IMG/VR virus record: IMGVR_UViG_3300042898_002794
Location: 1-31,670 of that record
From: a virus
DNA length: 31,670 nucleotides
Direction: 5' to 3' (one strand)
Below the pieces are notes generated by a model. The model ran no database searches. It was not told the origin of the DNA and saw nothing but the letters and a program-made list of their open reading frames with translations. This document shows positions 2,637 to 23,148 of this stretch, piece by piece; the stretch's first letter is position 1; each line of letters begins with the position of its first letter. The translations under genes were made by a program, and so were the position numbers.

Positions 2637-3082
2637 TTTTTGGTCTCATTGCCGTGTTCTTTAATCAACTGGTCTATGTCCTTTTGTGTGACCAACTTAG
2701 ACATCAGTTCTATTTCATCATCTTTAAAGTGCGGATACAGTTCCATCAACTGTTTTCGTTTGCCACTTGCTCCGGCTTCTTTCTTTTTGGGAGCAATCCA
2801 ATTATGCCTGGGTGTGCCCATGTTTGGACTTACAGATGTGGCACACAACCATTGCAGTTTAGGATGTTTGCTAAGATCAAAGAAATGTTTGTTCAGGCGT
2901 TCATTGGTCGAGATCAAATAAAATTCTTGTAGTTCTTGACTGCCTTCGACAGCACTGCCCCATCGAATCATGAGATAGTTGCTGAACTTTTTCTTTTCGT
3001 CAGGAGTTAGTTCGTCATAGAACTGTCTGTTCTTGCGATCAAACTGACGCATTTCATTCTGTATGCTGAGTTTTTCCATCAT
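2633..3082 (-). CDS. probable clamp-loader small subunit (gp62-like)
   Basis: 149 residues. The pattern FSNYLMIRWGSA followed by an inserted helical region, RHNWIAPKKKEA, and a C-terminal LYPHFKDDEIELMSKL resembles the phage clamp-loader A family (T4 gp62), whose members read NRxLSxF, a basic patch, then YYGYSxEKAxxxL. In T4, gp62 pairs with the gp44 ATPase to load the gp45 clamp. The match is by pattern memory only. No gp44 or gp45 is in this window. The gene overlaps the 3' end of the radical SAM gene by 29 bases if the first ATG is used; an internal ATG at 3052, three bases after that gene's stop, is an alternative start (139 aa). Confidence 0.5.
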   Translation of the reverse strand: MMEKLSIQNEMRQFDRKNRQFYDELTPDEKKKFSNYLMIRWGSAVEGSQELQEFYLISTNERLNKHFFDLSKHPKLQWLCATSVSPNMGTPRHNWIAPKKKEAGASGKRKQLMELYPHFKDDEIELMSKLVTQKDIDQLIKEHGNETKK

Positions 3083-4127
3083 GAATTAAATCGTTGTACA
3101 CTTGTGTTCTGTTAGGCAACAGATCAAACCATTTCTCGTTGCGGTAGCTGTCAAGTACCAGTTGGCTGGCTAAAAATTTATGCCAATCAGCAGAATTGTC
3201 TACTTTTTCTAATGCCCTAATAGAGTCAACAATTACTGGATGGCCACTGAACTTGGAACTTTTTAAAGTGGCAATTAGCGGAGCACGATATTTGCCGTAT
3301 ACAAGTCCTAGCCCCTCACTGCCATTGACATCAGCCAACACAGGGTTAAAATCTCTGTGGTTGATCCATTCAAAGTATTCAAACAATTTGTCAATCCACC
3401 AAATGTTAACTGCACTGATTACCGTGGCCAATTTCAAATGTGTATTTGGAAAAGCTCTGATCCAATTCATTGTTTGCTCTACAGTCTCCCAATCGCTGCC
3501 ACTACGAACTGCCGCCGTTGCTGGACCAACTGCATCAATACTGGCATGAATATTGATCTGTTTGAAATGTGGCCAGTAATCTTTTACCGATAAATCTTTA
3601 TATCCAGTCACTGTCATGTTTGTGCTGTACATCAGCAGTGGGTCAAGTTTTTGCTTGACTAATTTTTCCAACAATTCATAGTGTTGCGGATTTAACAAAG
3701 GCTCTCCACCGGCAAAATATACTTTTTTACAATTGGTCAAATCAATGTCGTCGATATTGGTGCGATCAAACAGATGTATAATTGAATTGTCAGCTTCGCT
3801 GGCCCAGCTGGTACTAAAACTTGGTCCACAACTTCTGCATTTTAGATTGCACATGTTGTTGTTACGAAAATCTAAAAATTGCACTGCTGAAGTTTTGTAG
3901 TCTGTTTCAAACTCATCAAAAACATTTCTCCAACCAGGTGCATTGACCGGACATGCTGAACATTCTGTGGGCACCTGATTTTGTAAAAATTGATCGCCAA
4001 CCACTTGAGTCATTTCCGTTTGGCTGTCGAAGTATTCGCCACGCCATTGGCAGCAAGGTGCAAACTTTCCACCTGGCATGTAGCTCACGCTGACCCAGGG
4101 TGCTTTGCAATATATGTTATTGGTCAT
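3054..4127 (-). CDS. radical SAM protein with N-terminal SPASM/twitch-like cysteines (1)
   Basis: 357 residues. The radical SAM cluster motif C-x3-C-x2-C is C93, C97, C100 (NMCNLKCRSCG), followed by the GGEP motif (YFAGGEPLLN) that binds SAM. Ahead of it is an auxiliary cluster region: C7 in CKAPW, C25-C26 in APCCQWRG and C56-x2-C59. This order, auxiliary cysteines first, matches the twitch-domain radical SAM family found in marine phages and bacteria. It should bind at least one 4Fe-4S cluster and cleave SAM to a 5'-deoxyadenosyl radical; the substrate is unknown. It sits downstream of uvsW with two small genes between, and its stop overlaps the clamp-loader-like gene. Confidence 0.85.
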   Translation of the reverse strand: MTNNIYCKAPWVSVSYMPGGKFAPCCQWRGEYFDSQTEMTQVVGDQFLQNQVPTECSACPVNAPGWRNVFDEFETDYKTSAVQFLDFRNNNMCNLKCRSCGPSFSTSWASEADNSIIHLFDRTNIDDIDLTNCKKVYFAGGEPLLNPQHYELLEKLVKQKLDPLLMYSTNMTVTGYKDLSVKDYWPHFKQINIHASIDAVGPATAAVRSGSDWETVEQTMNWIRAFPNTHLKLATVISAVNIWWIDKLFEYFEWINHRDFNPVLADVNGSEGLGLVYGKYRAPLIATLKSSKFSGHPVIVDSIRALEKVDNSADWHKFLASQLVLDSYRNEKWFDLLPNRTQVYNDLIHDGKTQHTE

Positions 4128-4912: not shown

Positions 4913-6382
4913 TTATTTGATCTTCATCCACTCTAGTTTCTCTGCTGAGAAAGGATAGTTGGCTTCTTTGTAGAATTGTTTGCGCTTGGTCAAGTGGCGT
5001 TTGGCAAACTTGCAGGTACTGGTCACATCCCAGATCTGAACATGTTCTTTATCTTCCGCTTTACGAATGCCACGACCAATCGACTGAATAACTCTAACAA
5101 AGCTCTTACCAGGCTCAATGAGTACCAGATTAAAAATACGGGGAATGTTAATACCAACAGCAGCCACACCATAAGTTGCCACAATGATTTTATCTGTTGC
5201 TTCAGCCACTTCATCATATTCATCTTGTCTATCTTTTGCTTTGGTTGCACCCGAGACAAACACTGATTTGTCCCCGAGTCGTTGTACCAGTTGTCTACCA
5301 CATTCAGTGCGATCTACTAACACTAGTGTATTGCCTGTTTCATTTACTTGGCGTATTAGCTCGGCCATGGCGTCGAGCCTGCCTGATTCTTCCAACAAGT
5401 ATTTAAGCTCACTTTGATAGTTACTGTACTCGACATAGTCTTGTAACTGCACAATGTTCACATGACATTGTGCCAACACACCCTGCTGTTGTAATTCACT
5501 GGCACTTAACCTGCCGATAACTGGGCCCAGGCTGACCAGCAGACTTTGACTTTCAAACTTTTCTTTTGGAATTGTACCAGTAAGACCCCATCGAATTGGC
5601 ACCCGTGCAAAAATGCCTGTGAGCAAAGTCTTTAGTGCATCAGCTTTGGCCATGTGTACTTCGTCTACCATGACACAAACAACTCCTTCAATAAAGTCTT
5701 GAATGGTATAATCGCCTATGCCACTTTTGGTATTTTTTAACAGTATGTTTAGACTTTGCCAGGTACAAATAGTGTGTTGCCGACCAAACTCTTTGCGATC
5801 ACCAAAATATACACCTACATCTAGACCTAAATTTTTATAGTCTTTTTCTGTCTGTGTCACAAGACTTTTGTTAGGCACAATGACCACACTTCTTCCATAA
5901 GATTCAATTGATGCACTTAGTGTGGCAGTCATGATGGTTTTGCCTGCTCCTGTGGCCACTTCCTGTATGCATTGTGGGTTCTTCAAGAAGTTGTTGACAA
6001 TCTCCACTTGGTAATCTCGCAACATAACAGGTTGGCCCTCAGCAGGATGCCCTTTGGGCCAAGATTTGTATACCCATCGATCTTCTGTTACAATGTCAAA
6101 GTCGAATGTGTTTGAGTAATCTCTTTGATCATCAAGTTCGATGTCATAGTCAAACTTTTCTAGTATAGGCAGGATGTCAGGCAACAAGTTGGTATAGGTG
6201 CTGCCGCCCAGTTGGAAGTAACTGACTTTGCCATCCCATCTTCCTAATCTAACTGCTGGCAGGTATCGTGCATATGGAACATCATATTTGAAAGCATTGA
6301 CCAGTGCCTTGCGAGCGTCCAGGTCTAGGCCTTCAATTTTGATATTGACCTCATCACGGATTTGTATTGTGCATTGTTTCAT
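4913..6382 (-). CDS. uvsW: UvsW-like DNA/RNA helicase
   Basis: 489 residues, near the 503 aa of T4 UvsW. Superfamily 2 motifs are in order: Q-like RDYQ (122-125), Walker A ATGAGKT (143-149), DEVH box (240-243), motif III LTGTIP, motif V ATYGVAAVGINIPR and motif VI QSIGRGIRK. The N-terminal 100 residues correspond to the UvsW substrate-binding domain. In T4, UvsW unwinds R-loops and D-loops and drives branch migration, switching replication from origins to recombination. The start overlaps the upstream radical SAM gene by 29 bases. All motifs needed for ATPase action appear intact. Confidence 0.95.
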   Translation of the reverse strand: MKQCTIQIRDEVNIKIEGLDLDARKALVNAFKYDVPYARYLPAVRLGRWDGKVSYFQLGGSTYTNLLPDILPILEKFDYDIELDDQRDYSNTFDFDIVTEDRWVYKSWPKGHPAEGQPVMLRDYQVEIVNNFLKNPQCIQEVATGAGKTIMTATLSASIESYGRSVVIVPNKSLVTQTEKDYKNLGLDVGVYFGDRKEFGRQHTICTWQSLNILLKNTKSGIGDYTIQDFIEGVVCVMVDEVHMAKADALKTLLTGIFARVPIRWGLTGTIPKEKFESQSLLVSLGPVIGRLSASELQQQGVLAQCHVNIVQLQDYVEYSNYQSELKYLLEESGRLDAMAELIRQVNETGNTLVLVDRTECGRQLVQRLGDKSVFVSGATKAKDRQDEYDEVAEATDKIIVATYGVAAVGINIPRIFNLVLIEPGKSFVRVIQSIGRGIRKAEDKEHVQIWDVTSTCKFAKRHLTKRKQFYKEANYPFSAEKLEWMKIK

Positions 6383-7682
6383 AATTGCTTATTGTATTGA
6401 TCCAATCCAAAAACACAGTTGGATAGACATCTTGATATTTTAATTTGCTAGTGTGATTATAATACTGCAAAAACTTCAAGAAGTCAAGCTCTAAGACTCG
6501 TTGATCAAAGTTGTGATTGGGCTGAGGGTTGTTCTTTAGGTACCCAATGGTTTTGTTTACAAATATCTCTTCGTCAGGCAACAACTGTTTCTGATTGCAA
6601 GTTAACCAATCTTGTATGTCATTACCTAGTGCTTGTTTAATTGCATCGGGCAATAATAAAACAGATTGAAACTCTGGTGCTCGAACAATTGTACTGTAAA
6701 ACTCCAATACTCTGGTTGGATAGCGTTGTCTCAACTGTGTGTTTAAATCAAATTTGTGGGTTAGCCCCCATACATTTAAAATGCTCACTGTGCTTTGCAG
6801 TTTAAGCAGACAATTGGCTGGAGTTTCACTGCACCAATAGTTTATGTTGTTTAAAAATTGTTGGTAGTCTAGCCCTTGCCTGGCATACTCGGCGATGTCG
6901 CCTGTGGCATCTATGCTGGCAGAAATTGTTATGCGTTTGAAGTTTGGTGCATATGATGCAAACTTTTTGACCAGTTGCAAGTCCACTGAAAAGTTACTGT
7001 TAATAGCAATTGACAAGTTTGGTGCTGTTCCAAGTGCATCAACAAACTTCCAAAAGTTTTTGCTCATTAATGGTTCGCCACCGCTGATCTTGAGGGTTTG
7101 TACTTGATCCTTTATTGTGGGCCACCACTTTAACCAAGCCTCAAGATAGGGTTGTTTGGTAGTACCTGGAGCAATGTGTATCTTTGAATACAGCTGTCGG
7201 CTGTCAGATTCTAAATGCAAGGGCTTGTTGTGTATTTTGGCAGCCCAAGAACTACTCTGTCCTGAGTCGCAATAACTGCACGACAAGTTGCAATAGTTAT
7301 CAAACACCACTTCGATAAACGGAGGTATGTAGTTTGGATCAACTGTTAACTCCTCTATTTGGTCCTGCCAGTATTGACTTTTTACAATACGGTCGCTCAC
7401 CGCAGTTGGGTCTGAATCTTCAATATGCCAGCACATGTGGCACTCATCAGGACGATGCCCATCCATCATGAGTTGTTGCATTTCGAGCTTGTGCGGAGTA
7501 TTGTGTAGCACTGATGGATTATCCAACAGCTCTTGCGGAATGCTGTGAGGAATAGGATGATGGCAACTGTTGCTACTGCCGTGATTTAGATACAAGAACA
7601 ACTCTGTCCATTTTGCTGGGCAGAAGAAATTACTTTTTTTCTCAAGTACCTGATATACTGGGTAGTCTTTTTTATGTTTCAT
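6354..7682 (-). CDS. radical SAM protein with N-terminal auxiliary cysteines (2)
   Basis: 442 residues, the longest of the three. C131-x3-C135-x2-C138 (NYCNLSCSYCDSG) is the SAM-cluster motif, and KISGGEPLMS gives the GGEP motif. The N-terminal part has C21 in CPAKW, C40-H41-H42 in SCHHP and C81-x2-C84 (ECHMCW), an arrangement parallel to the other two copies but with CHH replacing CC. This suggests a second cluster or metal site with a different ligand set. Substrate is unknown. It overlaps the upstream copy by 11 bases and uvsW by 29 bases, so the three are transcribed together. Confidence 0.85.
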   Translation of the reverse strand: MKHKKDYPVYQVLEKKSNFFCPAKWTELFLYLNHGSSNSCHHPIPHSIPQELLDNPSVLHNTPHKLEMQQLMMDGHRPDECHMCWHIEDSDPTAVSDRIVKSQYWQDQIEELTVDPNYIPPFIEVVFDNYCNLSCSYCDSGQSSSWAAKIHNKPLHLESDSRQLYSKIHIAPGTTKQPYLEAWLKWWPTIKDQVQTLKISGGEPLMSKNFWKFVDALGTAPNLSIAINSNFSVDLQLVKKFASYAPNFKRITISASIDATGDIAEYARQGLDYQQFLNNINYWCSETPANCLLKLQSTVSILNVWGLTHKFDLNTQLRQRYPTRVLEFYSTIVRAPEFQSVLLLPDAIKQALGNDIQDWLTCNQKQLLPDEEIFVNKTIGYLKNNPQPNHNFDQRVLELDFLKFLQYYNHTSKLKYQDVYPTVFLDWINTISNYETMHNTNP

Positions 7683-8802
7683 TTAGAAATACTGCCATCT
7701 CTTTAAAAGTAGATGCAAAATCCAATCCTCGATATTTGTCGTGTTCCTGCGTCTTGGTTGCAAAGGTAGAAAAATTGCTACTATCATCACTGTTCAAAAT
7801 TAGCCTGGCCCAATTCCGTACATCTGTGTGTTCGCTAGTGGTCAAGTGATCTGCTATTGCTGTTCTAACATGCTCTGGCCATACACTGGGTCGCATGTGA
7901 ACAGGATTATGTACTCTACCACACCAAGGACGAGGTAGTCCTACAGTATAACACCATGAGAAGAACTCGTCAAGATAATAGATATTGTATGCACTGACAG
8001 TATGGCTAACACTTAGCCGTGTGTTGCCACTTTGATGTACAATATACCTATGTACATTTTGTGCAACCTCAATCCAGGTAGCAGGATATCTAATGTACTC
8101 ATACTTATCACCAATTCCATCTATGCTAAGTTGCAAATCAACTTCTCTAAAATGTTGCCATAAATCCCACCATACATGATCAGGAAATACTGTGGCATTG
8201 GTTGTGTAGTGCAAGGTAATCTTTGATGCTTGTCCTGTATCTATATAGTGTCTTAGCAATTGTTGCTGTTCGGCCACTCCACTCAGGAATGGTTCGCCAC
8301 CTGGTATGTCAAGATGTACGACATTTGGTGCTTGTTTCACAAACTTTTCAACAAAGTCTTGTTTGTAAAATTTAACATGTTTATTATTAACACCATATAT
8401 GTCGTGGTATTCTTTTTGCCACCGACTGCTGGTTTCTGAGTTGCAGGTAATGCATTTGAGATTGCAGGTGTTACCAAATGCAATACTGGCAGTGATCCAC
8501 TTATCTCTGTCAATGTCATAGTTGTCGTAATGTAACGACCAGCGTTCTAAATCCAGTTGGCGTTTACTTTGGATATTGTTTTCTTCTTCTATACGACAGC
8601 GTTTGCATCCCTGGGGCCATTGCCCTGCTTGAAATTCTTGCTTGATTGTGGTCAAAAAGGCACTGCCAACATAATCATCAAGATTGTGCTGTTGAATATT
8701 AAAATGTTGATCATACAATCCTGTTTGAAATTTGCAACAAGGTGCAATATCGCCTGTTGGGCTGATGTCAAGGTTGGTCCAAGGAGAGTGGCAAAAGGTC
8801 AT
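7672..8802 (-). CDS. radical SAM protein with N-terminal SPASM/twitch-like cysteines (3)
   Basis: 376 residues. Auxiliary cysteines come first: C4 in CHSPW, C22-C23 in APCCKF, C66-x2-C69. The SAM cluster motif follows: C113-x3-C117-x2-C120 (NTCNLKCITCNS), then DIPGGEPFLS as the GGEP motif. It is clearly a paralogue of the genes at 3054 and 6354. First gene of the uvsW transcription run. It lacks a Shine-Dalgarno; its promoter (8816-8844) would give a leader of about seven bases. The product is likely cytoplasmic, and no partner or substrate is evident. Confidence 0.85.
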   Translation of the reverse strand: MTFCHSPWTNLDISPTGDIAPCCKFQTGLYDQHFNIQQHNLDDYVGSAFLTTIKQEFQAGQWPQGCKRCRIEEENNIQSKRQLDLERWSLHYDNYDIDRDKWITASIAFGNTCNLKCITCNSETSSRWQKEYHDIYGVNNKHVKFYKQDFVEKFVKQAPNVVHLDIPGGEPFLSGVAEQQQLLRHYIDTGQASKITLHYTTNATVFPDHVWWDLWQHFREVDLQLSIDGIGDKYEYIRYPATWIEVAQNVHRYIVHQSGNTRLSVSHTVSAYNIYYLDEFFSWCYTVGLPRPWCGRVHNPVHMRPSVWPEHVRTAIADHLTTSEHTDVRNWARLILNSDDSSNFSTFATKTQEHDKYRGLDFASTFKEMAVFLNET

Positions 8803-12495: not shown

Positions 12496-13310
12496 ATTCC
12501 TTGCCTTAATTCATTTACTGTGTATTCTGTATGACAAATTTCAGTCAGCCACGAATCTCTCTCAATGGCATAACTCTTTTCAAGTTTGTCCCACCAAATA
12601 CTCATTGGGTGTGCCAGACTGCTGGCGTCTGTCAACAGTCTAGTGCCCGATAATGCCGCTTGTATGCTAGGTCCCGAGTTGTAATTTACCACGGCATGAC
12701 AATCAAATCTCATGTTGAAACTGTCATAGGTATTGAGCAGGGGCTTGGGCTGTTCCAGTGTTACATTGGGCGGCAAGCTATGCATGTTTAACCAACATCT
12801 TGGGTGTGGTCTAATACGAATTGGACGGTTACTCAAGGACTTTATTGTTACCACTTGGTCCATGATCCATTCTTCGATACTGGACAGTTCTGCCACTTGC
12901 AAACTGCGATTGTGTTGTGCCGCAATCAAAATAGCAGGATCAGTGCTGAAATTTATCTTGCGCTCAATGCCTAATTTGCTGGGTCTATCCCAGTCTAGAT
13001 TTGTGGTGTGACCGTAGTAGCCTTCAGCAGTGATATTGTTCACAGCCAGCTTCCAGGTTTCGCCTCGAATCAATGCACCAACATCGAGTATGATCACTGG
13101 TTTGCCCAAACTTCTATAGTGTGCATATACCAATTCATTTGGAGCCATGCGCCCGTGCCACAACACTGACCATATGATTGCGGCATCAGAATCCCAGGAG
13201 TTTTCTTGAATTTCAATACCTTTTAATCTCAGGTGATCCAGCACAGCAGTCATAACAGGACCACTGTTGAGAGCACACTGAGAAGGATAATAGGCTATGT
13301 TCTTGATCAC
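12456..13310 (-). CDS. GT-B / capsule-synthesis-like glycosyltransferase (1)
   Basis: 284 residues from a GTG at 13310; the frame extends upstream to an ATG at 13355 but that would overlap the divergent gene, and IKNIAYYPSQ looks like the first strand of the protein. Motifs RIRPHP, NYNSGPSIQAALSG and a C-terminal helix WLTEICHTEYTVNELRQG resemble capsule polysaccharide synthesis proteins (KpsC/KpsS-type GT-B domain): the His-Pro loop and the NS-x-A-x-x-G nucleotide-binding turn. Donor and acceptor are unknown. Paralogous to the genes at 19694 and 20619. Divergent from the plus-strand operon with only 13 bases between start codons. Confidence 0.65.
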   Translation of the reverse strand: MIKNIAYYPSQCALNSGPVMTAVLDHLRLKGIEIQENSWDSDAAIIWSVLWHGRMAPNELVYAHYRSLGKPVIILDVGALIRGETWKLAVNNITAEGYYGHTTNLDWDRPSKLGIERKINFSTDPAILIAAQHNRSLQVAELSSIEEWIMDQVVTIKSLSNRPIRIRPHPRCWLNMHSLPPNVTLEQPKPLLNTYDSFNMRFDCHAVVNYNSGPSIQAALSGTRLLTDASSLAHPMSIWWDKLEKSYAIERDSWLTEICHTEYTVNELRQGIWLKRIEPALIQQ

Positions 13311-13320
13311 TAAATATTTA
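13311..13320. promoter_or_regulatory. palindromic late-promoter-like box between divergent genes
   Basis: TAAATATTTA is a perfect ten-base palindrome, so a TAAATA late-like box faces both ways. The minus-strand GTG follows at once (13310) and the plus-strand ATG is four bases away (13324). It could fire both sides of the glycan island. No sigma70 pair is evident nearby. Confidence 0.35.
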
Positions 13321-13323
13321 ACT

Positions 13324-14109
13324 ATGTTAATGCCACCACTACAAGGAAAACTCAATCAAAACAAGTTCTTTATATTTGCGGCTGCAGATCCTATTTACTT
13401 CGATACGCATGCCCGGCCACTAATAAAGAGCATACAAGTTAACACGCCCGATCTTGGGTGTCACATACACATTTACAATCCAAGACCTGACCAAATTGAA
13501 TTCTGCAATCAACCAAATGTAAGTTGTACCTATGAATATCTTGACGATCACGAATTCAACATGGTCACTGACCATTGGTCAAAACCAAGCATGTTTGAAA
13601 ATGATCGCCAACGACAAATGTTCAAAAAAGGACAAACACTAGGATCAACAGAACTAAACAAACTGATTCGACAAACATATTACGCCTGTGCTAGATTTGT
13701 GCGTTTGGCTGAAATTTTACCTAGAGAGCAACGCTGCCTAGCCATTGATGTGGATGGCCTTGTGCGAGCTCCATTTGCAAACGATCTGGGCCCCCTGGAC
13801 TTTTATCTGTATGAAAAACCCAAGGATGGCACACACTTAGCAGGATCAATCTTGTTCAATGGTACTGGTCGTAGCAACGATTTTATTCAACAATATGCGC
13901 AAAGACTCAGAACAAGCATTGAGCAAAATGACATCTATTGGTTTTTAGACCAAATCATATTAGATCAAATTATTCCTGGCTACAAAAAAGGGTTGTTGCC
14001 CATGAGCTATATTGACTGGGCCATGCGCCCAGAAAGTAGCATATGGAGTGCCAAGGGCAAACGCAAAGAGCTAGACATATTCAAAGAAGAACAGAGAAAG
14101 TATTCATGA
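13324..14109 (+). CDS. GT-A glycosyltransferase-like protein
   Basis: 261 residues from the ATG at 13324 (13330 is also possible; the frame extends to 13297 but into the divergent gene). KFFIFAAADPIYFDTHARP gives the first GT-A strand. CLAIDVDGLV places D142-x-D144 as the metal/nucleotide-sugar motif; GSILFNGTGR and FLDQIILDQII follow as in GT8-like and phage GT-A enzymes with a late DQ motif. First gene of the plus-strand operon; its stop overlaps the next start by 4 bases (ATGA). Confidence 0.7.
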   Translation: MLMPPLQGKLNQNKFFIFAAADPIYFDTHARPLIKSIQVNTPDLGCHIHIYNPRPDQIEFCNQPNVSCTYEYLDDHEFNMVTDHWSKPSMFENDRQRQMFKKGQTLGSTELNKLIRQTYYACARFVRLAEILPREQRCLAIDVDGLVRAPFANDLGPLDFYLYEKPKDGTHLAGSILFNGTGRSNDFIQQYAQRLRTSIEQNDIYWFLDQIILDQIIPGYKKGLLPMSYIDWAMRPESSIWSAKGKRKELDIFKEEQRKYS

Positions 14110-14876
14110 TTTCAATAGTAATGAGTTATTACAATCGTCTCAGTCAACTGAGATACACTCTCAAAACAATCAGTCAAAGCCAAGTTAAAGATTTAGAAAT
14201 TATCATTGCTGAAGACTTTTGTGACCCAGGTGAACGGCTGGATTCTATATCGTCAGAATTTCCACACTTGAATATCAAAGTGATACGCATGTCTGATGGT
14301 AGAATCAACAAGGATTACTGCAATCCGTGTGTGCCTTATAACACAGCACTTCGTGCCAGTCGTGGTGACATGGTCATTATACAAAACCCTGAATGTTGTC
14401 ACATGGGAGATGTGTTGCAGTATACTCTAGACAATTTAAACAATGAGAATTATTTGACTTTTCATTGCTATGCGGCAACCAAAGCAGAAACAAGAGTCAT
14501 GCAGTCTGGCGAACCACTGCCCATGTTCACAGATAAGAAATCTCGCTGGTATAATCATGTTACTGAGCGACCATATGCCTATCATTTTACCACAGCTATT
14601 ACTAGAGAAAATCTTGTCAAGCTAAACGGGTTTGATGAGCAATTTTCGCAAGGCCAGGACATGGATGATGTAGAATTGATCTATCGTGTGAAAGCACTGG
14701 GGCTGGAACTGAAATTTGTTGAAGCTCCTTGGGTGGTACATCAATATCATCGCAAGACCTATGACAATCCACACAACCCGCCAGTCACAGTAAACAACAG
14801 AGAACTTTGGGCCACAATCAAAGACAACCTGCAGGTCAGAGTCAGCAACAACGGTAACGATATATGTGGCATTTAA
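14106..14876 (+). CDS. family 2-type glycosyltransferase
   Basis: 256 residues from ATG 14106, preceded by GAGAAAG; an upstream in-frame ATG at 14043 would lie inside the previous gene. ISIVMSYYNRLSQLRYTL is the GT2 N-terminal strand. IIAEDFCD and RGDMVIIQNPECCH carry the two acidic/metal positions (the usual DxD is here NPE, as in N-terminal galactosyltransferase-type GT2 proteins). NGFDEQFSQGQDMDDVELIYR matches the conserved catalytic ED-type segment, written here in two pieces: NGFDEQFSQG and QDMDDVELIYR. The late WVVHQYH motif fits too. Overlaps the next gene by 13 bases. Confidence 0.8.
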   Translation: MISIVMSYYNRLSQLRYTLKTISQSQVKDLEIIIAEDFCDPGERLDSISSEFPHLNIKVIRMSDGRINKDYCNPCVPYNTALRASRGDMVIIQNPECCHMGDVLQYTLDNLNNENYLTFHCYAATKAETRVMQSGEPLPMFTDKKSRWYNHVTERPYAYHFTTAITRENLVKLNGFDEQFSQGQDMDDVELIYRVKALGLELKFVEAPWVVHQYHRKTYDNPHNPPVTVNNRELWATIKDNLQVRVSNNGNDICGI

Positions 14877-15733
14877 AAAACATACCAAAGATTGCACATT
14901 TCTATTGGGGTGGTAAAAAATTATCTTATCTTAGATTTCTATCAGTACAATCGTTTAGGCAACTCAATCCAGACTGGACCGTTCGTGTACACATGCCGAC
15001 CAAATTAAGTAGAGCAAAACCTGCATGGGATTCATTTCAACAAAAAGACATTGACCTAGCTTCTGATTATACTGCCCAACTCAAATCACTTGATGTGGGC
15101 ATTATGTACCATGACTTTGGTCGTTATAGATTTAAAAATCAAGCACACGAAGTTCACAAAAGCGATTTCCTTAGATGGCGCCTGTTGGGACAACACGGAG
15201 GACTGTGGTCAGACATTGACATTTTGTATACTCGACCAATGGATCAACTAGAAGAGAACTTGCCCAAGAATGCTGATATCGATGCGGTATTATGTCCATT
15301 GAATCCACCGGACAAGCACACTGTGGGATTTTTGTTATCGTCTGCAAATAATAAATTTTTTAAACACATTGCTGGACTGGCAAAGAAAGAGTACAATCCC
15401 AATGTATATCAATGCATGGGCAGTGACCTGATCAATCAGCGATTTAAAACATTTGAAAGTTTTGGTGAACAATTTCCAAATAACCAATTTATGTTTCTCA
15501 ATCGCAATTGTGTGTATTCTATCACCAGCAAGACCATTGAAATGTTTTATCAATCAGTAGATGCCAACATTAGTAAAAAAATCAACAACAAGTCTGTGAT
15601 AGGGTTTCATTGGTTTGCAGGACATCCTCGGTCACAGTTGTTTGAGAATGCATTGACCGCAGACACTGTGAATGAATATGACAATTTACTATCCACTGTG
15701 ATAAAGGAGTATCAACATGAAACATGTGATTAA
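14864..15733 (+). CDS. family 32-type glycosyltransferase (OCH1/capsular DXD)
   Basis: 289 residues. IPKIAHFYWGGKKLS is the signature first strand (IPKxIHxxW) of GT32. KSDFLRWRLLGQHGG followed by LWSDIDILY gives the DXD motif (D117, D119), again typical of the family (R-x-x-x-L-x-x-x-GG-x-Y-x-D-x-D). VIGFHWFAGHPRS near the end is the closing His/Trp segment. Known relatives transfer mannose or galactose in capsules and LPS. Cytoplasmic; overlaps neighbours by 13 and 17 bases, so it is part of one operon. Confidence 0.85.
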   Translation: MWHLKNIPKIAHFYWGGKKLSYLRFLSVQSFRQLNPDWTVRVHMPTKLSRAKPAWDSFQQKDIDLASDYTAQLKSLDVGIMYHDFGRYRFKNQAHEVHKSDFLRWRLLGQHGGLWSDIDILYTRPMDQLEENLPKNADIDAVLCPLNPPDKHTVGFLLSSANNKFFKHIAGLAKKEYNPNVYQCMGSDLINQRFKTFESFGEQFPNNQFMFLNRNCVYSITSKTIEMFYQSVDANISKKINNKSVIGFHWFAGHPRSQLFENALTADTVNEYDNLLSTVIKEYQHETCD

Positions 15734-16244
15734 AGGAAAGCGAGCATTCTCTAACGATTTGTTAGTGGGTTACTTGATGGGTGCTGTTCAACACGGCAGC
15801 ACTGTGCTTGATCTTGGATGCGGGCCAAAGATGTATTCAGACCCGATAAAACCTCAATGCAGTCGTGTGGTCACAGTGGATGGATGGGCATGGGTTGAGC
15901 CTGACATTGTGGCTAACCTTGAATCTACTCCACTGTCAGATGTCATTGCTGACAACTTTGACTATATTCTCATGCTGGATTTTATTGAACATATTGACAA
16001 GACCGCTGGATTGAGATTGATTGAAAACTGCAAAGCACAGGTAAACCAAAAGATATTTCTGTTGACACCATTGGAATCTATTTGGACTGACAATCACGAA
16101 AATGTCAACAATGCAGAATTATGGTGTCATGGCAATGAACTAGATGTACATAAAAGTTTATGGTCACCAGAAGATTTTTCTGGATGGACTAGAATACACC
16201 TGCGTGGGTTCGATGATTACTATGTGGGATTTTATGAAGCGTAA
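15717..16244 (+). CDS. class I SAM-dependent methyltransferase
   Basis: 175 residues. VLDLGCGPKM (30-39) is motif I for SAM; VVTVDGWAW gives the acidic end of strand 2, and YILMLDFIEHI is motif IV with the common FIEH. It could methylate a sugar or glycan intermediate, as small methyltransferases in O-antigen loci do. AAGGAGTATCAAC precedes the ATG inside the previous gene, a good ribosome site. Overlaps the 2-epimerase start by 11 bases. Confidence 0.8.
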   Translation: MKHVIKGKRAFSNDLLVGYLMGAVQHGSTVLDLGCGPKMYSDPIKPQCSRVVTVDGWAWVEPDIVANLESTPLSDVIADNFDYILMLDFIEHIDKTAGLRLIENCKAQVNQKIFLLTPLESIWTDNHENVNNAELWCHGNELDVHKSLWSPEDFSGWTRIHLRGFDDYYVGFYEA

Positions 16245-17298
16245 GATATTGACCATATTGGGCACACGCCCAGAAATTATTAGACTGGCCAGAATCATTC
16301 CCAAACTTGATCAAGCCAGCGATCATAGAATATTGCATACCGGACAAAACTACGATGCCACACTCAATAGAATATTCTTTGATCAACTGAGATTGCGCAA
16401 GCCAGACTGTGTGTTAGAAAGTCGCGGCACCATTGGTCAGCAGTTGGCAGCCATCATGATTGGTGTTGAACAATACATTGCAGAATTCCAACCTGATGCA
16501 GTGCTAGTGTTAGGTGACACAAATTCAGGACTGAGTGCTATTGTTTGTGAACGCATGGGTGTGCCTGTTTATCACATGGAAGCTGGCAATCGTTGCTATG
16601 ATTTGTTGGTACCTGAAGAAAAGAATCGAAAGCTGATAGACAGCATCAGCACCATTAACTTGCCATACACTCAATTCAGCAGAGAAAATCTCTTGCGTGA
16701 AGGTGCTGCCAACAACCGTGTTTTTGTCACAGGCAATCCTATCAAAGAAGTGTTGGACTACTACAGCAATGACATTGAGTCCAGCAACATTCTGGACCAA
16801 TTGAATTTGACTGCAGGGCACTACATCATTGCCACGGCACATAGAGCAGAAAATGTCGACGATCCCAACAGGTTAAATCAGATTATGGATGCATTTGAAA
16901 TCATCAGTCAACAGTATCCTATTGTGTTCAGTTGTCATCCAAAGACTCGTCAACGATTGGCCAACAGAAAATTGAGTGATCGCATCATTGTAACCGAGCC
17001 CATGGGATTTTTTGATTTTGTCAAACTGGAACAACACAGTCAATTGGCCATAAGTGATTCGGGCACAGTACAAGAAGAAATGTGCTTGTTCCAAAAACCC
17101 ACAATAACTATACGAGCAACTACAGAAAGACCTGAAACTGTCATGTGTGGATCCAATATCATTTCAGGATTAGAAACACAGAGAATAGTAGACTGCTATC
17201 AACAGGCACAGACATTGAGCAATTGGACCATTCCTGAAGAATACACTAGATCAAATGTCAGTGATGTAATTGTGAATATTATACTAGGAAAAATGTAA
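16234..17298 (+). CDS. UDP-N-acetylglucosamine 2-epimerase-type enzyme (WecB/FnlC-like)
   Basis: 354 residues from ATG 16234; longer in-frame starts would lie inside the methyltransferase. ILTILGTRPEIIRLARIIPK is the family N-terminus. HTGQNYD, VLVLGDTNSGLSA, HMEAGNRCYD plus VPEEKNRKLID, and SDSGTVQEEM are the conserved binding and catalytic stretches. The GNRC-x-D-x-x-VPEE version is the one I associate with FnlC/WbjD/CapG enzymes that epimerise C2 of UDP-L-amino sugars, rather than WecB. That fits the dehydratase and reductase downstream. ATG of the next gene follows the stop after one base or less. Confidence 0.85.
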   Translation: MKRKILTILGTRPEIIRLARIIPKLDQASDHRILHTGQNYDATLNRIFFDQLRLRKPDCVLESRGTIGQQLAAIMIGVEQYIAEFQPDAVLVLGDTNSGLSAIVCERMGVPVYHMEAGNRCYDLLVPEEKNRKLIDSISTINLPYTQFSRENLLREGAANNRVFVTGNPIKEVLDYYSNDIESSNILDQLNLTAGHYIIATAHRAENVDDPNRLNQIMDAFEIISQQYPIVFSCHPKTRQRLANRKLSDRIIVTEPMGFFDFVKLEQHSQLAISDSGTVQEEMCLFQKPTITIRATTERPETVMCGSNIISGLETQRIVDCYQQAQTLSNWTIPEEYTRSNVSDVIVNIILGKM

Positions 17299-18894
17299 AT
17301 GAATTATAATCGAGAATTTTGGAATGAGCAACATGACCAAGACAACGAAAGAACCTTATCTGGCTGTGGGTTTGATGCGACTGTAGATTTCTTAAATATA
17401 AAAGATTTAATTGTGCCCGGAATGCGTGTGTTAGAGATTGGGTGTGGACTTGGGTATGTAACCCAAGGGTTTGCAGAAATAGCCAAAATCAGTGTGCTAG
17501 ATATTAGCGATTCAGCACTGGATCGTGTTCGTCCTATATGTGAGTCAGTGTATCACATTGACAATGTTGAATCATTGCCTTCTGACTATTTTGATTTGAT
17601 CATTTGCCATAATGTTGTTCAGCATGTGCTAACTGCATCGTTAGTTAACGAACTTAAACATGCTATTCGCAGTTTAACACCTACAGGAACATTTGCTATC
17701 GAGTATGTCTGGGCCGATGGCACAGAAGACAACGGGTTAGACCCTGATCCAAAATGGGCCACAGCTGGTCATCTCTGTCGAAGTGACAAATTCATGATTA
17801 ATTTAATCAATGAACTAGGTGGCAAATGTACAATATCAAGAACCAATGCTGTTCCTAATCATAGAAAAATAAATGGCTTAACAGTTTTGCACATACAAAA
17901 AAGTCGTATGTTTGATAACAAGCGTGTGTTCATTTCAGGGGCCACAGGTTCTTGGGGGCAGACACTGGTTAAAATGCTGTTGGACAACTATGATCCCAAA
18001 GAAATCATTTGTTTCAGTCGTGGAGAATTACAACAGGTATTGATGCAAAGACGATTTCACGATCCTCGGTTGAAGTTTGTGGTCGGTGATGTGCGTGATT
18101 ACGAAGCTGTACGCTTTGCCATGAAAAATGTAGATGTAGTGTTTCATTTGGCTGCGCTCAAGCATGTGCCAGTGTGCGAAGATCATCCACAGGAAGCAAT
18201 CAAGACCAACATTACAGGGACTACCAACATTGTAAACGCTGCCATTGAAAATGGTGTGAGCAAAGTCATTGATGTGTCCACAGACAAAGCAGTTGAACCA
18301 CTCAACCTGTATGGCATGACCAAATCTGTAGGCGAGAAGTTGATCATACAAGGCAACGATTTAAGTGAGCATACCAAATTTGTGTGCATTCGTGGAGGCA
18401 ATGTCATGGGATCCAATGGATCAGTTATACCATACTTTGTGGAACAAATCAAAGCAGGTGGACCAGTCACCATAACTGATTTGGAAATGACTAGATTCTT
18501 TCTTACACTGGAAGAAGCTATTCAGCTGTTGTTCAAGGCAGCGGAACACAGTATAGGCGGCGAAACATTTGTCATGAACATGCCAGCCTGTTACATCAAG
18601 GACATTGCACAGGTATTAATGGATCATTATGGGCAGGTTGACATCCGAGAAATCGGCAGCAAGCCTGGAGAGAAACTGGACGAAATGCTGATTTCAAAGC
18701 ACGAAGCACTGCTGAGTCGTTGTTATGACTCTAACTATTATGTTATACTGCCAACCAAGTCTACTCCTGAGCTAGACAAACAATATGGTTCATTGCCTCG
18801 TTTCGAGCCAGAAGAGTTTAGTTCTCGCACATACCTAATGAACCGAGATCAAATCAAAGACATGTTGGTCAAAGGTGGGTTCATATGCACATAA
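17299..18894 (+). CDS. fusion: SAM methyltransferase + UDP-sugar 4,6-dehydratase (FnlA/PseB/CapD-like)
   Basis: 531 residues in one open frame. Residues 1-200 are a class I methyltransferase: VLEIGCGLGYVTQGF (44-58), VLDIS (66-70), DLIICHNVVQHV (99-110). Residues 204-531 are an extended SDR: FISGATGSWG (NAD-binding GxxGxxG), FSRGEL, VGDVRDY, HLAALKHVPVCE, STDKA, YGMTK (Tyr-x3-Lys) and RPGEKL-like SKPGEKLDE. These match UDP-GlcNAc inverting dehydratases/epimerases such as FnlA, WbjB, CapE and PseB. A Met at 17908 begins the SDR part but has no clear ribosome site, so the fusion is probably translated whole. The last ten bases overlap the reductase gene. Confidence 0.85.
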   Translation: MNYNREFWNEQHDQDNERTLSGCGFDATVDFLNIKDLIVPGMRVLEIGCGLGYVTQGFAEIAKISVLDISDSALDRVRPICESVYHIDNVESLPSDYFDLIICHNVVQHVLTASLVNELKHAIRSLTPTGTFAIEYVWADGTEDNGLDPDPKWATAGHLCRSDKFMINLINELGGKCTISRTNAVPNHRKINGLTVLHIQKSRMFDNKRVFISGATGSWGQTLVKMLLDNYDPKEIICFSRGELQQVLMQRRFHDPRLKFVVGDVRDYEAVRFAMKNVDVVFHLAALKHVPVCEDHPQEAIKTNITGTTNIVNAAIENGVSKVIDVSTDKAVEPLNLYGMTKSVGEKLIIQGNDLSEHTKFVCIRGGNVMGSNGSVIPYFVEQIKAGGPVTITDLEMTRFFLTLEEAIQLLFKAAEHSIGGETFVMNMPACYIKDIAQVLMDHYGQVDIREIGSKPGEKLDEMLISKHEALLSRCYDSNYYVILPTKSTPELDKQYGSLPRFEPEEFSSRTYLMNRDQIKDMLVKGGFICT

Positions 18895-19697
18895 CAGTAC
18901 TGGGTTCCGGAGGCATGGCCGGACACATGATTACACAATATCTCAGACAGCAAGGGCATGTTGTGAGAGCAGTGGGCAGGTCTGAACTTGATATTGAAAA
19001 TCAAAGTCAAGTTATTGAATTCTTCAATGGCTTGCAAACAGACTTTGTGGTCAACTGCATTGGCCTGCTGGTCAAAGACTGTTTAGATAGACCTGATCGC
19101 GCGGCCTTGATCAATGCGTGGTTCCCTCACTATGTGGAACATAGATTAAAAGATACCGACACAAGGTTGATACATCTAAGTACTGATTGTGTTTTCAATG
19201 GCAATAGAGGCAGTTACATCGAGTTAGACGCACACACAGAAACCAATGCATACGGTCGTAGCAAGAGTTTTGGCGAAGTCAACAACGCCAAAGATGTCAC
19301 TTTTAGAATGAGCATAATTGGGCCTGAAATAAAAAACGGAACTGGACTGTTGCATTGGACTGTGTCCAACTCTGAATCGCAATTGCCCGGCTGGACCAAT
19401 GCCTGGTGGAATGGAATCACCACTTTGCAATTGGCCAAGTGTATCAACGCTTATGTTGGTAATCCAGTGATCTCTGGAGTGTACCATGTGGTAAACAATG
19501 CCAACCGGATCAACAAGTACGAGTTGTTGTGCAAAATCAATGAAGTCTATAAACTAAACAAAACGATTGTGCCTACTCAAGGTCCCAAGAACATAGACAA
19601 AGTGTTGATAGACACAAGACGACAGTTTGATTTTGCAATCCCTGACTATGATCAACAGCTAAAAGAGCTGGCAGATTTTGTCACAATCCACAATTAA
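18885..19697 (+). CDS. RmlD-type SDR reductase (WbvR/WbjC/FnlB-like)
   Basis: 270 residues. ITVLGSGGMAGHMITQYL is the NAD(P)-binding start (GSGGMAG is the GxxGxxG form). FVVNCIGLL, LSTDCVFNG and AYGRSKSFGEV (Tyr-x3-Lys) follow as in dTDP-4-dehydrorhamnose reductase. GTGLLHWTVSNSES and WTNAWWNGITTLQLAK resemble the subgroup that reduces UDP-4-keto-L-amino sugars, working after the dehydratase and before the 2-epimerase encoded just upstream. Last gene of the plus-strand operon. Its stop shares the bases TTAA (19694-19697) with the stop of the convergent gene. Confidence 0.8.
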   Translation: MHITVLGSGGMAGHMITQYLRQQGHVVRAVGRSELDIENQSQVIEFFNGLQTDFVVNCIGLLVKDCLDRPDRAALINAWFPHYVEHRLKDTDTRLIHLSTDCVFNGNRGSYIELDAHTETNAYGRSKSFGEVNNAKDVTFRMSIIGPEIKNGTGLLHWTVSNSESQLPGWTNAWWNGITTLQLAKCINAYVGNPVISGVYHVVNNANRINKYELLCKINEVYKLNKTIVPTQGPKNIDKVLIDTRRQFDFAIPDYDQQLKELADFVTIHN

Positions 19698-20647
19698 ACT
19701 TTGACATAGTTGCGCATGTGAGCCCAGCAACGGCCAGACCGCACATCTTCAAAACTCCAATGACACTGAGCTAATTTTCTAATCCATACTTCTCTATTGT
19801 GTAACATAGGTTGCTCAATTAAACTAAAGTCAGTGTTGGCAACTTCTCCTGCTTGAGAGTATCCCGGATTGTCTGTGATAAACACAGGCACACCTTCTAT
19901 GGCTGCTACCGCACTGGGAGTAGAATTGTGACATACCAATGCCCAACAATTTTGCAGGTCTTCGAGAATGTGTCTTTGTTGCGGACTCACAGTGACTCCA
20001 AAATTTCTCAAAGTTTGTTCGTATTGCGGATAGGCTTTCCAGTCGCCAGGGTGCCAACGCATTATTATGGGACGATCTGAATACTGTCTTATTTTGCTAA
20101 TTGTTTGTTGGATCCATGTCATGAGATCAATACCGCGCATGCTCCAGCCCAACGGTCGTTGCAACGCAATTAAAATATGATTGCCGCCTTGGCGCCAAGG
20201 CTTGAGATCCAGGTTGTAGTCTCGACGAATGTTTGCCCAATTTTCTTCACCAGGTGTATCATTGCAATAGATGCCTGTGGCTGGAAACACACCATTGAAA
20301 CTGTATCGCAGGTACTTGTGTGGATTGGCTCGATCTTTGTAAATGAACACATTGCTATCAATACTGAGCCAATACTTGCCTAGTTTGTCTTGTGTTTTCA
20401 TAACCATTTTTCGAACCTTGTAATGCGGCAATGATGTCTTGGATGGGTTTGAGTTAAATGCATTACCAATGATGGCTCCAACATCACAAGGTTCATAATC
20501 ACTAGACTGGGTTGTTGTTGCGTTGTCTCCACAGCGAGCCGCGCCTTGTGCAAAAAATGTGAGTGCGTCAATTTTTTCTTGGCTGTTGATTCGTGCGGGC
20601 AAGCTACTGAGATAGCTTTTAATAACTAAGGGTTGGGCGTTCTGCAT
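19694..20647 (-). CDS. GT-B / capsule-synthesis-like glycosyltransferase (2)
   Basis: 317 residues. IIMRWHPGDW is the His-Pro loop, LVCHNSTPSAVAAIEGVPVF the NS-x-A-x-x-G-x-P nucleotide-binding segment, and AQCHWSFEDVRSGRCW the terminal helix. The same order occurs in the proteins at 12456 and 20619, so the three are paralogues of a capsule-synthesis-like GT-B family. It lacks a signal peptide. Its start overlaps the upstream paralogue by 29 bases, consistent with tandem duplication or long co-residence. Sugar and acceptor unknown. Confidence 0.65.
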   Translation of the reverse strand: MQNAQPLVIKSYLSSLPARINSQEKIDALTFFAQGAARCGDNATTTQSSDYEPCDVGAIIGNAFNSNPSKTSLPHYKVRKMVMKTQDKLGKYWLSIDSNVFIYKDRANPHKYLRYSFNGVFPATGIYCNDTPGEENWANIRRDYNLDLKPWRQGGNHILIALQRPLGWSMRGIDLMTWIQQTISKIRQYSDRPIIMRWHPGDWKAYPQYEQTLRNFGVTVSPQQRHILEDLQNCWALVCHNSTPSAVAAIEGVPVFITDNPGYSQAGEVANTDFSLIEQPMLHNREVWIRKLAQCHWSFEDVRSGRCWAHMRNYVKV

Positions 20648-21710
20648 TTTCTAGTACCATTCTCCAGGCTTGACCTGTGATTATTTCATCTAAACTAAAC
20701 TGGCTGTATGCAATGTTATGCAACCACTTTTGTATAATATCTTCATCAGGCATGTTGGGTTTTTCTATATTTTTTAAATCTTTATTTCCCACAGGATCAG
20801 CAGCCGTTGGAGCCAGCGCAAATGCTGGTATTCCATACTGTATGGCTTCAACTGCGGCAATGCTGTTGTATGTGACCAATGCATAGATATCATCATCTAG
20901 TGCATCATATATGGTGTCGTTGGTGCGTTCGCCGCGAGTGGCTTTTTCTCTAAACACAATTTCTCTATCTGTGTGTTTTCTCAAGGTCCTGACTACTTTC
21001 CTCAACCAGGCTTCGCGATTATGGCCGTAGTACTGAAAAGGTTTGTCTGATGAAAGAACCACTAGTACTTTGGATCCTGTTCTTTTCCATCCATTGTATT
21101 TCAGGTCAGGATTAAAGTCTACCAACTGATCCCAACGATCACTGGGCACATCCATTATGGTGTTGTGTTGCATGGCGTTTTTGACAATTCTATGGTAAAT
21201 TTTTCTACCAGTCTTGTTGTTTTCACAACGGTAATTGCCTAGATACCCAGTTTCGATAAAATAGTAATCCTCGCCTGCGGCCTTGACCTGATCAACAATC
21301 TTGCCACTGGCAATACCTCGACACAATACAGGTCCAGTGATACTTGCATGTTCGTCTCTGAATCTTGATTTATCCATGAATTTACTTTCAGGATAAGCAG
21401 CCATGATCATTGCAGGATAGTCGCTGTACTTTATACCACGATCAAACTTTTCAATTTTTTGTATCAACCCAGTAACAAAGCGATTGTGCAACAACGAATC
21501 ACTATTTCTCTTTAGATCATATCTTTGTTCTTTGGTCAAAGAGTAAGCAGAAACTTCGTATGTGCTTTCAACTTCTTTCAACATCTTGATGTCGTGGTAT
21601 AGTTGCATAGTATCAGCCACACTGTGTTTGAGCGCAGATTCGATGGTTGTATGTTGTTGTTTGTATTCTTCTGCTGGCCAACGATCAACCAATGCTGTGG
21701 GCAAAATCAC
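20619..21710 (-). CDS. GT-B / capsule-synthesis-like glycosyltransferase (3)
   Basis: 363 residues from a GTG at 21710, which overlaps the upstream stop as GTGA; an in-frame ATG at 21761 would force a 55-base overlap. The N-terminal 120 residues are helical with little family signal. The C-terminal half has VLVVLSSDKPFQYYG, IVFREKATRGER, ALVTYNSIAAVEAIQYGIPA (the NS-x-A-x-x-A-x-x-x-G-x-P segment) and AYSQFSLDEIITGQAW, parallel to the protein at 19694. The His-Pro loop of the other copies is not kept (FREKA instead), so function may differ. Confidence 0.6.
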   Translation of the reverse strand: MILPTALVDRWPAEEYKQQHTTIESALKHSVADTMQLYHDIKMLKEVESTYEVSAYSLTKEQRYDLKRNSDSLLHNRFVTGLIQKIEKFDRGIKYSDYPAMIMAAYPESKFMDKSRFRDEHASITGPVLCRGIASGKIVDQVKAAGEDYYFIETGYLGNYRCENNKTGRKIYHRIVKNAMQHNTIMDVPSDRWDQLVDFNPDLKYNGWKRTGSKVLVVLSSDKPFQYYGHNREAWLRKVVRTLRKHTDREIVFREKATRGERTNDTIYDALDDDIYALVTYNSIAAVEAIQYGIPAFALAPTAADPVGNKDLKNIEKPNMPDEDIIQKWLHNIAYSQFSLDEIITGQAWRMVLENAERPTLSY

Positions 21711-22393
21711 ATGTGGCCTCTCTGCAGGCAATAGTCTGCTAACATTCGCTCTCGATGCCATTCTTCACCTTGTGGCGTAGTAGCGAATTCGTGGAAACAA
21801 GGTGTGCCAAGTGTGTAGTGCAGTAACTTGGCATCAGGGTTTGGCCCGTATTCATCAGGCAACCAATTCCATTCAGGCGGCAATTCGCCTATGCGTTCAT
21901 CGTCTATCCACGAGAAGCGGTGGAGCTCACTGCCTGTGGATTTTTGTATGAAGTCTGGGGTAAGTTTCCGGTTAGGAAAGCTATTACAATTCCACAGAAT
22001 AACACTAGACCAATTTTTTCGAGGATAGTTTTCATTTTTTGATCCAAGGTATTTTTCTGTCATTTTGGTTTGATAATCGTGTTTGACCACTTGTACATCC
22101 ATGTAAGAATTTTTCAACTCCCATAGTTTGACAATGTCGTCTCTCACAACCATGTCGCCGTCAATGAATATTGCCCAACCAGTGTAATCCGTCAGGTGTG
22201 GCACCAGAAATCTTGAATAGATAAATTGATTGCTACCGTCAGTATGTGTTTCGTTATAGTCGTCAAACAGGTTAAGTGCCAGTGGTATAATAGCAACAGG
22301 CTTAGACGCATGTCTAATAATTGAATTGGCGCAGGTGTGATAAGCTATGGCTTCTCTAGGATCATAGCCGATAAAAATTGGAATTGGTTTCAT
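21707..22393 (-). CDS. GT8-like glycosyltransferase
   Basis: 228 residues. IPIFIGYDPREAIAYHTCAN is the family's first strand and donor loop; AIFIDGDMVV holds D78-x-D80 for metal. WSSVILWNCN and LLHYTLGTPCFHEF (His and Gly near the C-terminus) complete the site. The same family occurs in many marine phage and bacterial surface-glycan loci. GAGGA precedes the ATG within the upstream gene, and overlaps of 4 bases occur on both sides, so it is co-translated with the cytidylyltransferase-cupin and GT-B genes. Confidence 0.8.
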   Translation of the reverse strand: MKPIPIFIGYDPREAIAYHTCANSIIRHASKPVAIIPLALNLFDDYNETHTDGSNQFIYSRFLVPHLTDYTGWAIFIDGDMVVRDDIVKLWELKNSYMDVQVVKHDYQTKMTEKYLGSKNENYPRKNWSSVILWNCNSFPNRKLTPDFIQKSTGSELHRFSWIDDERIGELPPEWNWLPDEYGPNPDAKLLHYTLGTPCFHEFATTPQGEEWHRERMLADYCLQRGHM

Positions 22394-23148
22394 TTGCGTT
22401 CAATGTCCTCTTCTACACAATCTTCGCCGTATTGAATTTCAATCAGCTTGAGTGGATGATCCGTTTCATTACACAGCTGATGCCATTCATTGAGTCGGAT
22501 GAATGTGTGTTGATGTTTTGCAGGGCTGGCCATTATGTCATGATCTGTGCTGTGCGGATCTACAGTGTAGACTGTGGCTTCACCTTCGGCCACAAACCAA
22601 AACTCTGCTCTCTTTTCATGTCGTTGCATGCTAAGACAAGTTTTGGGATTAACTGTTAGTTCTTTGAGTTTGGTATTTGCTCCTACTTCGTGCAACACTC
22701 GATAATATCCCCAAGATCTGGTGGTCTTGGGTTTCTTCCAGTCTTCAAGTATCCAACTACTGGAATTCATTTTGTTTTCGCCACCTACACCAAACACAAA
22801 CTCCACATCGTCAAACACCATTTCTGGAATGTTATCCTTGGTGCGATCGCCGCCATTGGCAAACACAATCTTTGCTGTGGGATACCGAGTTTTAATTAAC
22901 TTGATGGCATCAATGCTAGATCCATCGTTGTCATTGTAAACAACAACTTCGTCTACTGTAGAAAGATTTCCCACAATGGCCTGGCGCTCTTGCAAAGGCA
23001 TGAAAGGCCTACCTTTTTTACGGGTAAGCCATTCATCTGAATTGAGCCCTACCACTAGTTTATCGCCTAATGTGCGTGCCGCTTTAAAATAGGCAATGTG
23101 CCCGGAATGTAGCGGATCAAATCCGCCAGTAACTATGACAATTTTCAT
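22390..23148 (-). CDS. fusion: cytidylyltransferase-like + cupin (mannose-6-P isomerase-like)
   Basis: 252 residues. Residues 1-140 are a nucleotidyltransferase of the RfaE/GlmU-cytidylyl type: VTGGFDPLHSGHIAYF with the HxGH motif (14-17), GLNSDEW and SSSWILEDW. Residues 145-252 are a cupin: WGYYRVLHEVGANTK, LSMQRHEKRAEFWFVAEGEA (His 177 and Glu 182 as metal ligands) and HTFIRLNEWHQL, similar to the C-terminal domain of ManC/phosphomannose isomerase type II. The pair suggests nucleotide-sugar (for example NDP-heptose or mannose-like) supply for the nearby glycosyltransferases. No Shine-Dalgarno is seen; TATAAATA lies five bases before the ATG. Confidence 0.8.
   Translation of the reverse strand: MKIVIVTGGFDPLHSGHIAYFKAARTLGDKLVVGLNSDEWLTRKKGRPFMPLQERQAIVGNLSTVDEVVVYNDNDGSSIDAIKLIKTRYPTAKIVFANGGDRTKDNIPEMVFDDVEFVFGVGGENKMNSSSWILEDWKKPKTTRSWGYYRVLHEVGANTKLKELTVNPKTCLSMQRHEKRAEFWFVAEGEATVYTVDPHSTDHDIMASPAKHQHTFIRLNEWHQLCNETDHPLKLIEIQYGEDCVEEDIERK

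Follow-up and report, generated by a model that had tools for sequence, protein, structure and literature searches.

Could a bacteriophage encode the synthesis of an activated rare L-amino sugar of its own? This question is raised by the viral record IMGVR_UViG_3300042898_002794, whose whole length of 31,670 bases is called the window below. Three adjacent genes on the + strand, within positions 16234-19697 and inside a glycosyltransferase/methyltransferase operon, encode a non-hydrolysing uridine diphosphate (UDP)-N-acetylhexosamine 2-epimerase (EPI), a UDP-N-acetylglucosamine (UDP-GlcNAc) 4,6-dehydratase (DH) and an RmlD-fold NADPH reductase (RED). An earlier note on this DNA had proposed here a phage-encoded set for the conversion of UDP-GlcNAc into a UDP-L-hexosamine, either UDP-N-acetyl-L-fucosamine (UDP-L-FucNAc) or UDP-N-acetyl-L-quinovosamine (UDP-L-QuiNAc). 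Its coordinates are correct, the family matches of the three enzymes are far beyond chance, and the UDP-L-hexosamine reading is upheld, with the L-QuiNAc option favoured and the L-FucNAc route not supported. We propose, with moderate confidence, that DH and RED make UDP-N-acetyl-L-rhamnosamine (UDP-L-RhaNAc) and that EPI makes UDP-L-QuiNAc, as in Megavirus.

From gene identity, phylogeny, linkage, conserved catalytic signatures and the presence or absence of EPI, we infer a pathway in which DH would convert UDP-GlcNAc into a 5-inverted 4-keto-6-deoxy sugar, RED would epimerise C3 and reduce C4 to give UDP-L-RhaNAc, and EPI would invert C2 to give UDP-L-QuiNAc. The surrounding glycosyltransferases would then transfer the L-amino sugar, and two methyltransferases (MT1 and MT2) probably O-methylate the glycan or the sugar. 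The recipient would be a virion protein or a host envelope glycan, and the sugar most likely decorates the surface of the phage or of the host. In Megavirus, the inverting dehydratase Mg534 and the 270-aa reductase Mg535 make UDP-L-RhaNAc, the 2-epimerase Mg536 is predicted to make UDP-L-QuiNAc, and the virus is reported to contain L-RhaNAc and L-QuiNAc as well as the 3-O-methyl form of each (PMC4691112, PMC10117803). The phage trio matches this route step for step, and related phages that lack EPI match its two-enzyme form.

Conservation of the cassette in related phages

Relatives were obtained from scans of viral contigs and reduced to 41 distinct dehydratases, with at least 60% identity and at least 1.3 kb of upstream sequence. 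RED lies downstream of DH in all 40 phage loci where the contig continues; the two genes overlap by 3-6 bases in some loci and are separated by an insertion of 0.7-0.9 kb in two others (L072 and L073). EPI is found upstream in 24 of the 41 loci, including one (L230) in which it is cut by the locus end, and is absent from the other 17. A DH-RED pair that is constant across 41 distinct phage loci, with an optional EPI, is the new observation. When whole contigs were searched, no Epimerase_2 domain was found anywhere on DH-RED contigs of 210, 188 and 162 kb, while one is present on a 282-kb record and on five others; the records with and without the domain may all be incomplete genomes. In the DH tree the phages lacking EPI nest among those bearing it, with 16 of the 17 in one clade (Shimodaira-Hasegawa-like approximate likelihood ratio test, 99), which points to the loss of EPI. 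Since DH-RED is fixed and EPI is optional, the related phages probably fall into two sugar types, making either L-RhaNAc or L-QuiNAc.

If true, phages as well as giant viruses supply themselves with activated rare L-amino sugars in the course of infection instead of using those of the host, and two sugar types are predicted from whether each of dozens of genomes has or lacks a single epimerase gene. A wider claim is put forward tentatively, as one that could well go either way: the dehydratase clade of phages and Bacillota described below would define a UDP-L-RhaNAc/UDP-L-QuiNAc route of its own, and the loss of one epimerase gene would set large freshwater-type myoviruses apart in their surface chemistry, which would be based on either L-RhaNAc or L-QuiNAc, with methyltransferases and glycosyltransferases that replace one another in the slot beside the dehydratase.

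Some contigs depart from this arrangement. Two loci (L216 and L222) keep RED, MT1 and the glycosyltransferases with neither DH nor EPI beside RED, and the pathway looks incomplete on the contig. One phage contig (L021, 6446-10129) carries an EPI and a DH that are both distant, together with the two glycosyltransferases, and lacks RED. A contig from a Halanaerobiales metagenome-assembled genome (MAG; L127, 1936-10275) carries EPI-RED-DH together with genes homologous to GT32 and MT1 of the phage, and may be a piece of a phage or prophage. Close matches in two 'Staphylococcus phage' records (OR849864 and OR844989) were rejected as phage evidence, as they resemble the host cap locus: genes like CapD/CapE are present, and the tree places the epimerase at zero distance from CapG. 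No relatives were found when Mg534 was queried against the viral contigs.

Class of the dehydratase

To which class does DH (17908-18894, +; Polysacc_synt_2, 1.2e-92) belong? It was scored with the NCBIfam models for FnlA (TIGR04130, cut-off 730) and PseB (TIGR03589, cut-off 408). The FnlA model gives 258 bits for the phage enzyme and 558 bits for CapE of Staphylococcus aureus and two other FnlA-type controls, all under the cut-off, and thus discriminates the phage DH from the controls. The PseB model is the top-scoring one for DH (332 bits, under its cut-off), but it cannot decide the class because the FnlA-type controls score 321-337 bits as well. The active site of the phage enzyme, STDKAVEPLNLYGMTK, contains SYK, whereas FnlA types have SMK (STDKAxYPINAMGxSK). 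DH also carries the TDK..Y..K signature, by which it would be of the 5-inverting type, although the 5,6-dehydratase Pen has it too; in a review table TDK marks inverting dehydratases and TDE marks Pdeg and the retaining enzymes (PMC8987622).

In the DH tree, the phages and the EPI-DH-RED loci of Bacillota form one clade (100/98), separate from the FnlA/CapE/WbjB clade (100/98). Helicobacter pylori FlaA1, Pen and Mg534 fall outside the phage/Bacillota clade, on long branches that leave their exact place unsure. Therefore, the suggestion of an FnlA/WbjB-like dehydratase is ruled out by score, motif and tree, and membership of PseB fails at the cut-off. Judged from its sequence, DH is a member of a third clade beside FnlA and PseB, shared by phages and Bacillota; if true, this marks a group of dehydratases that is now blurred with PseB in databases. 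The earlier note would have dropped its route had the dehydratase grouped with PseB and the epimerase with WecB; the epimerase groups with CapG/FnlC instead, and the dehydratase lies outside the FnlA clade and, as far as the long branch joined by FlaA1 allows, apart from PseB.

The middle gene of the trio is in fact a fusion, a 531-aa frame at 17299-18894 (+) in which residues 1-203 are a class I S-adenosylmethionine (SAM) methyltransferase domain (MT2, 17299-17907; Methyltransf_11/25, 1.7e-13) and residues 204-531 are the dehydratase. The dehydratase had been recognized before, while the N-terminal methyltransferase had been missed. In five relatives (L010, L017, L031, L034 and L079) MT2 and DH are separate, overlapping genes that lie one base out of frame, so that the change of one base is enough for a fusion. 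Both the window and L009, L018, L025 and L028 have the two in the same frame, uninterrupted by a stop codon. Across the relatives, the slot between EPI and DH is occupied by a methyltransferase, by a GT-D-like domain (L005 and L044) or by nothing.

The reductase and the epimerase

RED (18885-19697, +; RmlD_sub_bind, 4e-25) is a protein of 270 aa with a single RmlD domain, and it lacks the C-terminal cupin C3-epimerase half of FnlB/WbjC/CapF (about 370 aa). Its AlphaFold model has a predicted local distance difference test (pLDDT) score of 96 and matches the RmlD structure 3sc6 with a Z score of 29.7, while NF047837, the model for WbjC-type reductases, does not match it. RED is 31% identical (1.5e-38) to the reductase of an Escherichia coli fnlA/reductase/2-epimerase locus, with the motif STDCVFDG, but only 23% identical (7e-6) to FnlB. 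That E. coli locus appears to fit the L-QuiNAc set of PMC6467956. RED has the features of an L-QuiNAc-type reductase of the QnlA/WbvR/Mg535 kind, namely a single RmlD-type domain, the STDC motif and a position beside a dehydratase and/or an FnlC-like epimerase.

Cys109 of E. coli GDP-fucose synthase (Fcl) acts in C3/C5 epimerisation, and hhalign aligns Cys102 of RED to it. Cys102 is present in all 36 distinct phage REDs, from loci found through DH or EPI and not selected on the cysteine, while tyrosine occupies this position in solved RmlDs and in 5/5 true RmlD paralogues of the same bacterial loci. The count covers phage loci only; bacterial REDs were rejected as independent evidence because one search pattern contained that cysteine. 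RED is accordingly proposed, from alignment and conservation, as a putative 3-epimerase and 4-reductase. A MAG of Bacilli (L138, 819-4442) has two RED copies, one with serine for the invariant cysteine (STDSVF).

EPI (16234-17298, +; 354 aa; Epimerase_2, 9e-89) starts at 16234, as a start at 16144 would give a longer frame that runs into the gene upstream. The FnlC/WbjD-like 2-epimerase foreseen in the earlier note is borne out: the motif GNRCYDLLVPEE, of the GNRC..VPEE kind, is present, the best match among solved structures is S. aureus CapG (9.5e-89), and the tree groups EPI with CapG/FnlC, split from WecB/WbpI at 100/100, and the same was seen when E. coli FnlC and the Qnl epimerase were included.

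Alternative routes

Could the same genes make another sugar? With a C5-retaining dehydratase like Pdeg, RED would give UDP-D-QuiNAc and EPI would give UDP-D-RhaNAc. Pdeg shares 46% identity with FlaA1 but does not invert C5 (PMC4514872), and sequence alone cannot settle the point; however, DH has TDK rather than the TDE of Pdeg and the retaining enzymes (PMC8987622), the D-QuiNAc reductase Preq is described as RMD-like (33% identical to GDP-4-keto-6-deoxymannose reductase) and not RmlD-like, and epimerases of the CapG/FnlC kind act on L-sugars, which leaves this D-sugar route unlikely. No more probable is an L-hexosamine formed with no C3 epimerisation, in which the L-arabino 4-ketose formed by DH would merely be reduced by RED (to L-altro or L-ido) before EPI alters C2. 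The PseB-like active site of DH, the RmlD fold of RED and the lack of an obvious second Fcl epimerase residue would suit it; against it stand Cys102 at the position of Fcl Cys109 and the making of UDP-L-RhaNAc by Mg534/Mg535, the same pair of enzyme kinds. Synthesis of UDP-L-FucNAc by FnlABC/CapEFG/WbjBCD, the first option of the earlier note, is very improbable: CapG is the best match of EPI and the gene triad is similar, but DH is not FnlA-like, the required cupin-bearing FnlB/WbjC/CapF is absent and NF047837 does not match RED. Least probable of all is a pseudaminic-type route with DH as PseB, for which the top score of the PseB model and the SYK active site would speak; that score is below cut-off in a model that does not discriminate, an aminotransferase is absent among the annotated neighbouring genes, and a reductase adjoins DH in every one of the 40 phage loci.

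Several points also weigh against the route through UDP-L-RhaNAc to UDP-L-QuiNAc that we prefer. No residue of RED clearly corresponds to His179, the second acid/base residue of the Fcl epimerase. No enzyme of the phage/Bacillota DH clade with known biochemistry was found. The main doubt comes from Pdeg of Bacillus cereus, which, though FlaA1-like, has no 5-epimerase activity (PMC4514872); a search for Pdeg with its published primer, over 397 genomes from a single order, gave no match, so the DH tree is drawn without it. In addition, phage RED branches with the REDs of FnlA-type loci, whereas DH and EPI branch with Bacillota loci. Consequently, the partnership of the enzymes is read from linkage only, and the cassette may be of mixed origin.

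Genomic context

The window contains T4-like core genes (TerL, a gp32-type single-strand DNA binding protein, UvsX and a helicase), and its closest TerL relatives are from jumbo Pseudomonas phages of the PA5oct kind (53%). The carrier is a large freshwater-type phage. The rightward run (13297-19697) begins with a gene that has no family match and is kept beside the cassette in relatives (13297-14109, +), followed by a family 2 glycosyltransferase (14043-14876, +; Glycos_transf_2, 4.8e-7), a glycosyltransferase with a DXD sugar-binding region (14864-15733, +; Gly_transf_sug/Caps_synth) and MT1, the second SAM methyltransferase of the operon (15717-16244, +; Methyltransf_23, 1.6e-6), which is upstream of EPI in relatives as well.

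This run converges on a leftward one starting with a putative GT-B glycosyltransferase of KpsC-like fold (19694-20647, -; AlphaFold pLDDT 91; Foldseek top matches KpsC, 1.4e-6). Next come a putative glycosyltransferase (20619-21761, -; weak DUF6716, below cut-off), whose C-terminal half resembles its KpsC-like neighbour by blast between both families, and a family 8 glycosyltransferase (21707-22393, -; Glyco_transf_8, 3.6e-6). The flanking glycosyltransferases noted earlier are thus found on both sides of the trio, and transferases able to use the sugar are present. Beyond them lies a nucleotidyltransferase (CTP_transf_like, 2.6e-14) fused to a mannose-6-phosphate-isomerase-type cupin (1.2e-20; 22390-23148, -), which adjoins the cassette in most relatives too. 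Three radical-SAM genes (3054-4127, 6354-7682 and 7672-8802) lie in the same phage region.

Comparison with known systems

No report of a phage-encoded nucleotide-sugar or L-QuiNAc/L-RhaNAc pathway was found in a non-exhaustive search of the open-access literature. Bacteria and giant viruses are already known for this chemistry, of which the phage genes form a branch that is separate and modular. The sugar module is real, conserved and ordinary in kind; its carrier is unusual, its dehydratase clade is distinct and its last step is optional.

Among cellular systems, the EPI-DH-RED operons of Bacillota (Paenibacillus, Bacillus, Rossellomorea and others; for example L119, L134 and L161) share the gene order and the DH clade, with SYK dehydratases 50-57% and EPI 49-53% identical to those of the phage, but their RED is only 35-40% identical and branches apart. 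WbvB/R/D of Vibrio cholerae O37 are an L-QuiNAc-type set. The L-QuiNAc O-antigen loci (FnlA, QnlA reductase and QnlB epimerase in the naming of PMC6467956) have the cupin-less STDC reductase and FnlC-like epimerase, but an FnlA-type SMK dehydratase, and identities are 31-44%. The L-FucNAc systems CapE/CapF/CapG of S. aureus and FnlA/B/C of E. coli resemble the phage in the kind of epimerase and in overall logic, and differ in their SMK-clade dehydratase and in a reductase with a cupin C3-epimerase half. Mg534-Mg535-Mg536 of Megavirus chilensis has the same three enzyme kinds, that is, a TDK..Y..K dehydratase, a 270-aa RmlD-type reductase and a 2-epimerase, in a viral cluster with glycosyltransferases. 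However, Megavirus is a eukaryotic giant virus whose Mg534 is distant (158 bits) and on another branch of the DH tree, whereas the phage cassette has another gene order, a methyltransferase fusion and an optional EPI.
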